Origin: Planctomycetia bacterium
GTDB lineage: Bacteria; Planctomycetota; Planctomycetia; Gemmatales; HRBIN36
Length of the DNA stretch: 64,000 bases
Direction: 5' to 3'
NCBI GenBank assembly: GCA_016795155.1
Contig: JAEUIE010000057.1
Coordinates: 62,001 to 126,000, forward strand
Of this stretch, positions 58,499 through 63,717 are shown one piece after another; within the stretch, counting starts at the first letter, position 1, and each line of letters opens with the position of its first letter. Below the pieces are notes generated by a model that worked only from the letters and a program-made list of their open reading frames with translations, searched no databases and was not told the DNA's origin. The translations under genes were made by a program, and so were the position numbers.

Positions 58499-60079
58499 TT
58501 ACTTCTTTTCTTCAGCCTTCTTCTCTTCGGTTTTCTTTTCTTCCACTTTCTTCTCAGGATCGCGTTTGCCGTTCTTGCGTTCAGGCACTTCAGGTTTTTC
58601 GCGATTGAGCAATTCAGGCATGTTGGCTACTCGCATAGCCGTTAGCGCCATCACTTGGGAGCCTTGAATTAGGTCTGGCTCACGTGCTTTATCGAGCGTA
58701 TCGCTCTGGGAATGGTGAGTCAGGTAGTACTCAGCGGGGTCTTGCCGGAAGGCAAAGCCTGGAACACCAGCACCATCAAAGGGCAGGTGATCGGTGCCTC
58801 CCTGGGAACCCGTCGTGATATCGACGTTCAGTTCCTTCAGGCTGACCAGTTCAGCTTCCAGAATGGGTTTCAGCACAGTGCGGCCTTGCAGTGGAATGGA
58901 AAGTACGCGGCCTGTGCCGGTATCGTGCACCAGGGCCATGGAGATGCGCTTGAGTTCATCTTCATGAGTTTTGACATAAGCTCGTGAGCCATGCAGTCCT
59001 TGTTCTTCACCGGTAAAGAGTGCAATGCGAATGGTGCGCTTGGGACGAATACCTTCCTTGGCGAGTTTGCCCAGCGTGCGGGCAGCTTCGAGCACCACCG
59101 AGGTGCCTGTGCCATTATCTGTAGTGCCTTGGCCGAGATCCCACGAGTCGAGGTGAGCACCGATAACAACGAATTCATCAGGCTTCTCGGTGCCTTTGAT
59201 TTCACCAACCGTGTTGTAAACCGTAATCGGGCCAGGGATAATCTTGGCTTCGATTTCGACTTCAACCTTAACTGGTGTCGCATCCTTGCGGGTCAACAGT
59301 CTATAGAGCATGGCATAATCATCATGCGACATGAAAAGTGAAGGCAGCGGATCACCTGCTGTGCCTCGATCACCCCTACCCCAGGAACCTGTCATATTGA
59401 GCAGGCCGTGAGGCTTGGCAGAATCGGTGAGCGTGCAGGCTACACCTTCAGAGCGGAGGAACTGATCAATCGACCGCATGAAATCAGGCGAACTGCCACC
59501 ACCACCCGGACGACGGCGTGGCATGTTGGACGGATCACGAGGCTTGCCGATGTCAGCGATGGGGCGGACATCGGAAGGTTTGCTGCGCATGATAATAGCG
59601 TTTTTCAGTTTGCCTTTGTACTTGTTCAGTTCTTCCTGGCTGGTGGCATCGAGGAAGATCACTTCGCCAGTCAGTTTGCCTTGAGTGCCTGGCGTCCAGG
59701 CGCGGGAGGCAACGGCTAGCCAGCGATTGGTGTTGGGTTCCACCATCTTCATGCGGGCAAAGCCACGTTCCCAACCAGCGGGGATGGTGTAAGGCTCCAG
59801 TTTGACGTTCTCCAGGCCGTAGCTTTTGAACTTCTCTAAAGCCCAGTCGTTGGCTCGTTTCAGGTTTTCCGAACCGGTGACTCGTGGTCCAATCACATCG
59901 CTGAGATAAGTAAGGTTCGACATAATTTCCTGTCGTTCCTTTACTTCATTGATGATGGTTTGATCAATTTCCAGAGGAGTTTTTGATGCCGTCTTGGGGG
60001 CAGCATCTTCGGCCCAAACCATCGCGCTGATCATGCATACAATAGCGGCCAGACAGGCCATTCGCCACACGGATTTCAT
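58499..60079 (-). CDS. M28-family zinc aminopeptidase, secreted
   Basis: A 526-residue protein with a signal peptide (MKSVWRMACLAAIVCMISAMVWA). Zinc ligands and catalytic residues are readable in order: His and Asp in GAHLDSWD, Asp in TTDNGTGT, Glu in FTGEEQGLHGS, Asp in VHDTGTG and His in YYLTHHSQSD. A protease-associated region lies between. The C-terminus is Lys/Glu-rich repeats (EEKKTEEKKAEEKK). GGAG lies eight bases before ATG 60079. It likely frees amino acids outside the cell. Confidence 0.93.
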   Translation of the reverse strand: MKSVWRMACLAAIVCMISAMVWAEDAAPKTASKTPLEIDQTIINEVKERQEIMSNLTYLSDVIGPRVTGSENLKRANDWALEKFKSYGLENVKLEPYTIPAGWERGFARMKMVEPNTNRWLAVASRAWTPGTQGKLTGEVIFLDATSQEELNKYKGKLKNAIIMRSKPSDVRPIADIGKPRDPSNMPRRRPGGGGSSPDFMRSIDQFLRSEGVACTLTDSAKPHGLLNMTGSWGRGDRGTAGDPLPSLFMSHDDYAMLYRLLTRKDATPVKVEVEIEAKIIPGPITVYNTVGEIKGTEKPDEFVVIGAHLDSWDLGQGTTDNGTGTSVVLEAARTLGKLAKEGIRPKRTIRIALFTGEEQGLHGSRAYVKTHEDELKRISMALVHDTGTGRVLSIPLQGRTVLKPILEAELVSLKELNVDITTGSQGGTDHLPFDGAGVPGFAFRQDPAEYYLTHHSQSDTLDKAREPDLIQGSQVMALTAMRVANMPELLNREKPEVPERKNGKRDPEKKVEEKKTEEKKAEEKK

Positions 60080-60186
60080 TCGCACATCTCCACAGATGAA
60101 GGTCTTGCAAGTCAAGCTATGGTGTACCGCTTGCACCGGCAGATTGCCAGAAGAAAGCATGTTCTCATGGGATTATCAGAATTTGA

Positions 60187-63100
60187 TCAGACAACGGGAA
60201 CCGGGCTTTGCCATTGATCCACATCCTGCCGGCAATGGGGGGTGAAATGCTCAATGCCCAGGGCTGTTTGGTAAGCCTGCAGACCCAGTTCACTCAGTAC
60301 AGGCAATTGTTCAAGTTGAATACCAACGATGGTTCGGTAGAGAATGACTTCATCGTTACGATTGATGTTGACAAGCTGAGTATGCGGATACGCAGTGGTA
60401 GCCACCTCACCCAGTTTGATGCCCTGTGGCGATTCATTCGCCATCAGAAACACAGCTTCGCCTGTATGATCATCATTGAGGAAATGCATCATCGGCTCTG
60501 CTTCATTGTAAACTTTCTGAAAGGCAGCAGCGGTATCGGGGTTCTTGTCAAGAAACAATCCTGCTGCATCATCGAGCACTAATCGTTGTTCAAGAAAACG
60601 TTTGGCTTCCTGCATGATCAGGTCGCGGACAGGTTTCAGCTGGTCAATCGTAGAAAGACAAAGTTCCCCGATGCGTGGATGCGATTTTTCCATGCGCTCG
60701 GAGACAAAATGGTCGATCTTGTCGAGATCATAACTGGTGATGCTGTCAACAAACTGCTGTACGGCCTGCAGCATGTCGTTGCAGCCATAGGGAATGATGA
60801 CCGATTCGGTGATGCGATTGACCGTGACAGGCTTTTCGGGCAATTTCTCCATGTCGAGAGTTGCCTTCTGCAATTCGAGCAAGCGGCTTCGGCAAAAACG
60901 AACATCACGGGTCTGATCAGAGCAGGCGCCACGGAAACCGATATAGACTTTAGAGATGTACTCATTCATGACAGCCCGCAGTCGAGCACGGTAGATGGCG
61001 AGCAGACGCTCGCCGGGAGTGGTCATGCTGGGCCACTTCTTTTTCGGCACAGCTTTCAGGCGATCATACTCAGCTAAATCCTGCCGTAGATATTCGAGAG
61101 CCTGAACGTATTCTGACTGAGCCTGTTTGGCTTTGGCTTCATGGGAGGCAATCCAGCTATCGAGTTTGGTGATAGCGTAGCGGAGAGCCTCTTCGGTAGC
61201 GCCCATCCGAAGGCCTGATTTATCGAGATGTCGATAGACTGTGAAGACCAGTCTGGTAGCGCCGGTACGGACTACCTTTTCGCAGGCATCCTTGAGCGCG
61301 CGATGCAGCTTGGTGTTGTTCTCCGCGAGGTCCAGCGGGTTGGCGCTGGAGCCTTCGCCCGTGGAACCAAGACTTTTGACGATCTCCCTCAATGCTCGTT
61401 TCACTTCATCGCTGTTGGGCAGCTTTTCATGAATGCCATGCTGAAATGGGGCGATGATCGTTTTGATGATGTCTTCGCTGGAGTAGCCGAGCGAACGTTT
61501 GGCAGCCAGTTCAAAGTACTGAAACAGTGATTCGGGCGAGAGTTTCTCGTAGTGGAAGAAACCATCGATCCGGTGCCTCACGACATTCTGTATTTCAGGT
61601 GTCGCTGAGATCAACCATTTGTCGAGAATGCGCTGGAAGACCAGATGCGAAGCTTTGCGGATGAGCGCGCGACGAGGCGAATTCAGCACACGAAGCCCCA
61701 TCGTCTGATAAGGCGATGTGCCAGCAGTAAGGCGAACAGGATCAGCCACGCGACCGAGAGCTGTTGTCAGTAGTCGGTTGAGCACTTCAGCTACCTTCTG
61801 AATCTGAAGCGGTGCGTTATCCTTGCGTTCCTGGGTTGCAGCGGGGCGTGGCGGGGTTTCAATGAGCTGCACCTGCGTAAACGGTGGCGTGGAATCTTCT
61901 ACCCATTCAGACTTGGATTCATAGATGGCTCGGAACGGCATGCCAGCCTGCTGATAGTGGTACAACTCATACAGCGCAGCTACGGCATTGGCTTCAGGCA
62001 GATCGGCAGCTTCCATGCAGGCATCATCAGGCACATAGCAGATGCCGACGATTTCAGGTTCCGCGATATCCATTTTCCGCATGAGGTGCTTGATGATGTA
62101 GGCACAGTCAATCATCATGCCGCTGGCGGTGCCACCCCCAAGATGTCCCACGATATAGATGCGTGGAGTGGTGGAAAGAAATGATTCCTTGGTGTTCTTT
62201 TCGGTTTCGGCTTGAACCACCGGGTCCATGATGGTTTTGAGGTCGCGTTCAAACCTGGCGCTGAAGGAGCGATAATGCTCAATCAGAGCCAGTCGCCCCA
62301 AGGCACGGATGCCACTTGTCATCTGCGTCCGTGGCATACGGTAGAGAATGTTGGTATTCAGCCATTCTTCCACGGGCGGCAGGCTGTCACGTGACCGGAT
62401 GTAGCGTGCTGGCCGGTTCAGTCGGGTTAAAACCAGGTCTTCATGGGTATCGATTCGTGCCAGGTGATCGCCGGGAGGAGCAGGATCAGTATCGACGGCA
62501 ATGGATCGAATGATAGGTAAGCCTGACGGGCCGTACTGCAATTGCAGGCTTTGTTTGAGCCATTGCAGAGTGGCGCGTCCGAACTGCCCCAATCCAATCA
62601 ATATGGATGGACGCAATACTCCCGTAGAAGAGTCCTGAATGGGAGCAACTACAGCACGCTGGGGTGATGGTTTCCTTACCTGAGTAATGAGTCCGCTGGC
62701 CATTCGGCTGCCAACATGATGTGTCACCGGGCCCAGTTCGAAGTAATCATCTACCCGAAGCGACGTACCAGCAATAGTGGCGTCTGGTGGCTGAGACTTC
62801 CCCCGCATGGGGCTGACTGGAATCGGGCTTTTGGGAGCCAGTGGTATTTCAGGAATTTCGGTCGGCGCTTCCACTGTAGGTTTCAGCAGGGAATGACGGA
62901 GCATGTGCACCATCGTCATGCAGTTTTCCCAGCGGTCACCTGGCTTCTTGGATAGTGCCTTTGAGATGATGTGGCGGTCAGCCGGTGGCAATGGCTCAAC
63001 GTTGGGTACAGCCTGAATGTGCTGCATCATCAACTGCTTGGCATTGGTGCCACTGAACGGGCGAATGCCTGTCAGAAGTTCCTGAAAGACAATGGCCAGG

Positions 63101-63717
63101 CTATACTGATCACTGCAGCGGCTGACATAGCCTTCAAATGTTTCGGGTGCGGCATATACCGGTGTTACTCCACCGGTAACTTTTGCATTGACACCTTCCA
63201 GATCTTTCACCAGGCCGAAATCGCCAATCTTGATGTGGTTGTACATCAGGAAGAGATTCTGCGGCTTGATGTCGAGGTGAAGCAGGTCGTGCTCGGTGGT
63301 CATAATGTCGAGTGCTTCAGCGATTTCTTCCATGTATCCCAGCAACTCTTCGCGGGGAATGCCCATCAGACCTTTGCTGCGGTAGACCCGGAACCGATCA
63401 TACAGATTGCAGTCGGCCAGTTCCGTGACAATGATCAAACGGCCTTCAATGATCTCATAGCGTTCAATGCTGAGGATGTAAGGATGTCGAATATTCTTGA
63501 TGCGTTCAATGGAACGCAGTTCCTGTTCTGCCTTGATGCTGTCATCCACCGCACCGACATCTTCGAGATCGCCATAAACGAATTTGATGGCTTTCTGAAT
63601 CTTGCCTGGAGCTTCACATTTCCAGACTTCACCAAATCCACCACCGCCCAGGCGTTCGATGAGCCGGTATCCCGGAATGGGTTCAGCATCGGCTTCAATC
63701 AACAGGGGCATGGGCAC
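60187..63717 (-). CDS. Serine/threonine protein kinase fused to a tubulin/FtsZ-like domain
   Basis: A 1176-residue protein. Residues about 15-275 form a kinase: GGGGFGEV (23-31), Lys45, catalytic loop HLDIKPQN with Leu in place of Arg (147-154), DFG (166-168). A Pro-rich linker follows. From about 370 a second nucleotide-binding domain starts: ILIGLGQFG (372-380), AVDTD (407-411), and the tubulin-type signature GHLGGGTASGMMIDCAY (524-540). Family resemblance is to the Pfam group 'Tubulin-like' (Tubulin_2). The C-terminal 500 residues are helical. No membrane span is seen. Confidence 0.88.
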   Translation of the reverse strand: MPMPLLIEADAEPIPGYRLIERLGGGGFGEVWKCEAPGKIQKAIKFVYGDLEDVGAVDDSIKAEQELRSIERIKNIRHPYILSIERYEIIEGRLIIVTELADCNLYDRFRVYRSKGLMGIPREELLGYMEEIAEALDIMTTEHDLLHLDIKPQNLFLMYNHIKIGDFGLVKDLEGVNAKVTGGVTPVYAAPETFEGYVSRCSDQYSLAIVFQELLTGIRPFSGTNAKQLMMQHIQAVPNVEPLPPADRHIISKALSKKPGDRWENCMTMVHMLRHSLLKPTVEAPTEIPEIPLAPKSPIPVSPMRGKSQPPDATIAGTSLRVDDYFELGPVTHHVGSRMASGLITQVRKPSPQRAVVAPIQDSSTGVLRPSILIGLGQFGRATLQWLKQSLQLQYGPSGLPIIRSIAVDTDPAPPGDHLARIDTHEDLVLTRLNRPARYIRSRDSLPPVEEWLNTNILYRMPRTQMTSGIRALGRLALIEHYRSFSARFERDLKTIMDPVVQAETEKNTKESFLSTTPRIYIVGHLGGGTASGMMIDCAYIIKHLMRKMDIAEPEIVGICYVPDDACMEAADLPEANAVAALYELYHYQQAGMPFRAIYESKSEWVEDSTPPFTQVQLIETPPRPAATQERKDNAPLQIQKVAEVLNRLLTTALGRVADPVRLTAGTSPYQTMGLRVLNSPRRALIRKASHLVFQRILDKWLISATPEIQNVVRHRIDGFFHYEKLSPESLFQYFELAAKRSLGYSSEDIIKTIIAPFQHGIHEKLPNSDEVKRALREIVKSLGSTGEGSSANPLDLAENNTKLHRALKDACEKVVRTGATRLVFTVYRHLDKSGLRMGATEEALRYAITKLDSWIASHEAKAKQAQSEYVQALEYLRQDLAEYDRLKAVPKKKWPSMTTPGERLLAIYRARLRAVMNEYISKVYIGFRGACSDQTRDVRFCRSRLLELQKATLDMEKLPEKPVTVNRITESVIIPYGCNDMLQAVQQFVDSITSYDLDKIDHFVSERMEKSHPRIGELCLSTIDQLKPVRDLIMQEAKRFLEQRLVLDDAAGLFLDKNPDTAAAFQKVYNEAEPMMHFLNDDHTGEAVFLMANESPQGIKLGEVATTAYPHTQLVNINRNDEVILYRTIVGIQLEQLPVLSELGLQAYQTALGIEHFTPHCRQDVDQWQSPVPVV

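Follow-up and report, generated by a model that had tools for sequence, protein, structure and literature searches.

A kinase-FtsZl1 (Tubulin_2) fusion protein of FtsZ-less Gemmatales, with two paralog lineages and a conserved C-terminal tail

The gene at 60187..63717 on the minus strand of the window, the stretch of 64,000 nucleotides that we analyzed, encodes a kinase that is soluble and cytosolic and belongs to the kinase-FtsZl1 family of planctomycetes. Its open reading frame starts with a GTG codon at 63717, stops at 60187, and yields a protein of 1176 residues in which Pfam detects an N-terminal kinase and a Tubulin_2 (FtsZl1) domain; the features described below lie on the same strand. 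A membrane helix is unlikely anywhere in the protein, the highest 19-residue hydropathy being 1.13. The reading frame, its coordinates and the motifs quoted from it all lie where the first-pass annotation had placed them, and its central claim, that a kinase is joined to a domain of the tubulin/FtsZ superfamily, is borne out by the Pfam matches, an AlphaFold model and PDB fold matches. The further kinase-Tubulin_2 fusions that it had proposed to seek by profile search do exist: the domain order is identical in 74 fused sequences from the own genome and its relatives, so the fusion cannot be put down to faulty assembly.

The same annotation had called the fusion unusual, which was an overstatement. 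Makarova and Koonin described in 2010 four FtsZl1 proteins of planctomycetes that carry a kinase at the N-terminus (PMC2875224), an N-terminal kinase on Tubulin_2 proteins of Planctomycetes was reported again in 2023 (PMC9871819), and a 2024 survey found that, of the domains associated with solely cytoplasmic Planctomycetota kinases, the tubulin-like one occurs most often (PMC11032199). The window gene is thus a further case of an architecture known since 2010. At least three descriptions of this architecture exist, and we found no experiment on any kinase-FtsZl1 protein in the literature searched.

The Hanks-type Ser/Thr kinase domain spans residues 17-271 (62905..63669) and matches PF00069 (Pkinase) above the Pfam cut-off (E=1.2e-32). 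It contains the glycine loop, the VAIK-type lysine (K45), the HxD aspartate (D149) and the DFG motif at residues 166-168, starting with D166, by which such kinases are recognized, as well as N154. Its catalytic loop, LHLDIKPQNL from residue 146, carries HLD (H147-L148-D149; 63271..63279) and no RD arginine before the catalytic aspartate. What had been taken for an oddity of this one gene is a family trait marking a non-RD kinase, as the alignment has leucine at this position in nearly all fused members. The sequence is that of an intact-looking, non-RD Hanks-type kinase, and all members of the two paralog lineages described below that have the columns of K45, D149 and D166 keep these residues. 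Conservation among the 74 fused sequences is much the highest in the kinase, where mean pairwise identity is 0.63, whereas the GTPase reaches 0.36 and the C-terminus 0.24. The kinase is followed by a Pro/Ser/Thr-rich linker (residues 272-371; 62605..62904) that sequence comparison found not to be conserved between paralogs. PADLOC and NCBIfam matches (mad6, PD-T4-6, PknB), which would have raised a role in defence, were set aside as generic kinase similarity: the NCBIfam kinase scores are far under cut-off, and the PADLOC matches listed fall on the kinase side (residues 5-364). Likewise, the matches listed in a plasmid search are kinase-side only and include no fusion.

Residues 372-697 (61627..62604) match PF13809 (Tubulin_2) with E=6.1e-31 and a score of 108.4 bits, where the cut-off is 27. 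They contain a T1-like loop, GLGQFG (residues 375-380; 62578..62595), and the T4 tubulin signature GGGTASG (residues 527-533; 62119..62139), whose alanine, rather than the HLD loop, is the more unusual feature; it recurs in two other members of lineage B, as TASG or TAGG. An AlphaFold (AF2) model of residues 365-1176, built from an alignment with 41 relatives, reached a mean pLDDT of 90.7 and a pTM of 0.81. Searched against the PDB, the model gave 87 matches at E<=0.001, the best 50 of which, with E-values from 1.3e-6 to 2.5e-4 and a probability of 1.00, are without exception structures of CetZ, FtsZ or tubulin, headed by CetZ2 4b45 (1.3e-6). The TM-scores by target length are merely about 0.37-0.54, which marks a strongly diverged member of the superfamily. 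A viral library yielded two matches at E<=0.001, both phage FtsZ / cell-division proteins. The tubulin topology that the annotation had made decisive for residues 365-700 is therefore present in both the model and the PDB matches, and the glycine signature occupies the expected loop: GGGTASG directly follows strand 519-525 (model 155-161) and lies at the start of helix 529-548 (model 165-184), as T4 does. By sequence, a PDB profile search identified no true relative, its best E being 0.054 and FtsZ appearing only at about 0.5, and PF00091, the domain of FtsZ proper, had no match over cut-off in the protein. Motifs and predicted fold together identify a tubulin-superfamily nucleotide-binding domain with its T1 and T4 loops in place.

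The models show an all-helical region beyond this domain, at residues 680-1072 (60502..61680), with three long helices at about 803-958. Together with the further helices of the C-terminal half, these three, which measure 30, 53 and 58 residues, correspond to the coiled coil and helical C-terminus of FtsZl1 proteins. Modelled alone, residues 680-1176 had a pLDDT of 85.7 and no significant PDB match. We looked among the C-terminal helices for a BAR-like or other known membrane domain and rejected it: with a best E of 0.037 and an rmsd of 37 A, the PDB matches are chance coiled-coil similarity. A small strand-helix-strand-strand element follows at residues 1087-1131 (60325..60459). In the model numbering, a strand at 306-315 is followed by the large helical stretch and then by this element at 723-767, an order that suggests a large helical, coiled-coil insertion in the tubulin intermediate domain. 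By the same order, residues 1087-1131 are possibly the remainder of that domain.

The protein ends in a conserved tail, PHCRQDVDQW (residues 1160-1169; 60211..60240), which we found by alignment and pattern search. Its consensus, P-H-[SA]-R-x-D-[VI]-x(1,2)-W, lies inside the final 20 residues, and 64 of the 74 fused proteins fit its strict form, R-x-D-[VIL]-x(1,2)-W; three of the 10 exceptions are truncated where a contig or locus ends. R1163 and D1165 occur in 71/74 alignment rows, the other three being gaps, and the histidine, arginine and aspartate of the tail belong to the nine columns that show no variation in the C-terminal alignment. A kinase-fused protein of Roseimaritima has the tail SRVDIDW. 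The motif was absent from the kinase-less FtsZl1 relatives checked, apart from two fragments (L140, L144) that cannot be scored as kinase-less because their upstream parts are cut off. By analogy with the FtsZ tail, it is plausible that this element binds a partner or serves in docking.

We detected four Tubulin_2 genes in the own genome, on contigs C8, C28, C57 (the window gene) and C59. A FastTree phylogeny placed kinase-less proteins apart from kinase-fused ones and split the latter into two old paralog lineages, A (26 rows, including the C8 gene) and B (48 rows, including the window gene and its nearest relative, the C28 gene), each found in both families of the order; the placement of two long branches (L004, L106) is not confident. 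The T4 loop is full length in 48/48 lineage-B rows and in the five lineage-A rows of the window's own family. It is one residue short in all 21 lineage-A rows of the other family, f2 (e.g. ASASGGSGGML; L052, L058, L062, L071, L076, L084), with the kinase residues intact. GTP binding has probably been lost or changed in this paralog, to judge from the loop, and GTP binding would therefore not be required for the retention of every member, a point against the reading preferred below. The C59 gene (L004; G000:C59:119951-120898) is degenerate in both halves, with no glycine loop (RLSRSHASET), HGR(LK) for HLD, DWG for DFG and SESLATG for T4, and likely encodes a double pseudo-enzyme.

The distribution was assessed in 41 genomes of the same order, comprising the own genome (97% complete) and its relatives, and in 198 genomes sampled from elsewhere in the phylum. 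Tubulin_2 was present in 37/41 genomes of the order, in one to four copies each, and in 8/198 of the others, 7 of these 8 over cut-off. The relatives that carry names belong to Gemmatales/Gemmataceae, for example Zavarzinella formosa and species of Gemmata, and matches beyond this group include the Roseimaritima protein as well as kinase-less cyanobacterial and acidobacterial proteins. That the host is a planctomycete without FtsZ, as had been assumed, agrees with our scan: no PF00091 match exceeded the cut-off in the own genome, and the same scan was positive in 13/14 control genomes. We found no FtsZ proper in any of the 41 genomes of the order, the lone PF00091 match being a Tubulin_2 gene.

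Clustering of the neighbourhoods of about 60 loci revealed no operon conserved across the family, the neighbours being unrelated. In several genera scpA, encoding the kleisin of the SMC-ScpAB condensin, is found directly or nearly directly downstream of the fused gene, at seven loci in all (L061:12665-13492, L072:4136-4888, L081:5205-5948, L091:6096-6806; likewise L113, L118, L144). In four genomes (G011, G016, G023, G034) it follows lineage-B genes and shares their strand, usually no more than tens of bases away. In one genus, a PP2C-like phosphatase gene is convergent to the lineage-A gene (L041:11158-12492, L047:10694-12007), and at L096 (G026) an SMC-like gene (MLKSLEIVGFKSFAEKTRFEFSAGI...) is convergent to a lineage-A gene. 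Divergent from several lineage-B genes is what we take, from its motif (LLVSVRSxxEAxxA...), to be a methanofuran/H4MPT C1-pathway gene, and three of these loci presumably also have an unusual long Hsp70-like gene nearby; the loci with such neighbours are L072, L081, L098, L051, L056, L069 and L074. In the window, the kinase-FtsZl1 gene is followed on its own strand, after 26 bases, by a gene for a secreted M28-type peptidase-like protein (58499-60160), and the two may share a transcript; we did not see this peptidase gene beside the relatives' genes.

Our preferred reading, which we hold tentatively and at a little under an even chance, is that GTP-dependent self-assembly of the tubulin-like half concentrates and places a soluble kinase by scaffolding and crowding. 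GTP binding would drive self-association of the FtsZl1 part, perhaps together with paralogs; this would concentrate the tethered kinases and position them at a particular cell site, and the kinase would then phosphorylate partners or the assembly itself. The tail might recruit a shared partner or act in docking, like that of FtsZ. As the catalytic loop has no RD arginine, recruitment and crowding are likelier means of control than phosphorylation of the activation loop. A conserved kinase, a variable linker and a diverging GTPase and C-terminus, as read from the sequences, fit a common kinase output on paralog-specific tubulin-like scaffolds. Assembly may not occur, however, since the T6-H7-T7 elements for polymer-coupled GTP hydrolysis were not identified: we did not identify from sequence a T7 synergy loop with its catalytic aspartate in the window protein, and Makarova and Koonin could not identify T6-H7 in the FtsZl1 family (PMC2875224). 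This last point favours the main rival, in which FtsZl1 senses nucleotide and so switches the kinase joined to it in a monomer or dimer, with no polymer. The GTPase loops in place in lineage-B members and a modelled coiled coil suggestive of dimers also suit such a GTP-gated kinase, but the long unconserved linker argues against tight allosteric coupling of the domains, and we regard it as rather unlikely.

Gemmatales have elaborate internal membranes, which would suit a membrane-remodelling machine with the kinase as its built-in regulator. Remodelling is what Makarova and Koonin proposed for FtsZl1 at the family level on the basis of gene context (PMC2875224). However, the window protein has no transmembrane segment, and motif scans and clustering, which fall short of full annotation, revealed no vWA, P-loop GTPase or OmpA operon around the four own genes, so the proposal lacks its original basis in this genome, and we consider this function improbable here. 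Replacement of FtsZ in cell division would accord with the presence of Tubulin_2, and the absence of FtsZ, in the order. Yet four of its genomes that are 93-100% complete (G019, G022, G029, G033) have no Tubulin_2, the gene therefore not being indispensable for division; Tubulin_2 is also rare in the rest of the phylum sample, and FtsZl1 occurs elsewhere mostly alongside FtsZ (PMC2875224). Such a replacement is very unlikely. The smallest probability goes to a chromosome-segregation factor that phosphorylates or organizes the SMC-ScpAB condensin. The scpA genes behind lineage-B members speak for it, but scpA is not adjacent in most genera, the own scpA is on another contig than the window gene, and the adjacency may be merely old gene order, the retention of which suffices to explain it. 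More speculatively, and with scarcely greater probability, lineages A (its GTP loop degraded in one family) and B (intact) could co-assemble in the FtsZ-less Gemmatales like alpha- and beta-tubulin, carrying kinase heads, anchored via the RxD[V/I]xxW tail and acting on chromosome organization or cell architecture.

Self-assembly of a tethered kinase, the reading we prefer, concerns a tubulin-superfamily protein of nearly every Gemmatales member sampled and bears on cell organization and division where FtsZ is lacking; the fusion makes regulation addressable within one polypeptide. In the literature on the kinase-FtsZl1 family we found no mention of the C-terminal tail motif, the two paralog lineages, the loss of a T4 residue in f2 or the scpA neighbourhood. 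The tail, the lineages and the neighbourhood offer concrete experimental handles on the family.

Among known systems, the protein stands closest to the FtsZl1 family (PF13809), with which it shares the Pfam domain, a T4-bearing GTPase, the coiled coil and a helical C-terminus, and, in the planctomycete members, the N-terminal kinase. It differs from a typical FtsZl1 in being without the vWA/GTPase/OmpA operon, which is typical and not obligatory, in being multi-copy in the order, and in its GGGTASG form of T4. Planctomycetota cytoplasmic kinases with a tubulin-like domain have the same architecture in the accessible part of the 2024 survey, a part that includes no fold, motif or paralog analysis of it (PMC11032199). 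FtsZ and CetZ resemble the protein as its top PDB fold matches and in the T1 and T4 loops; unlike them, it has no PF00091 match over cut-off, a big helical C-terminal half, an attached kinase and a TM-score to them of about 0.5. A Ser/Thr kinase is also paired with a tubulin-superfamily GTPase in Bacillus subtilis, where PrkC acts on the FtsZ tail; in the accessible part of that report the two are separate proteins acting in trans (PMC12747378), whereas in the window protein the link is covalent.
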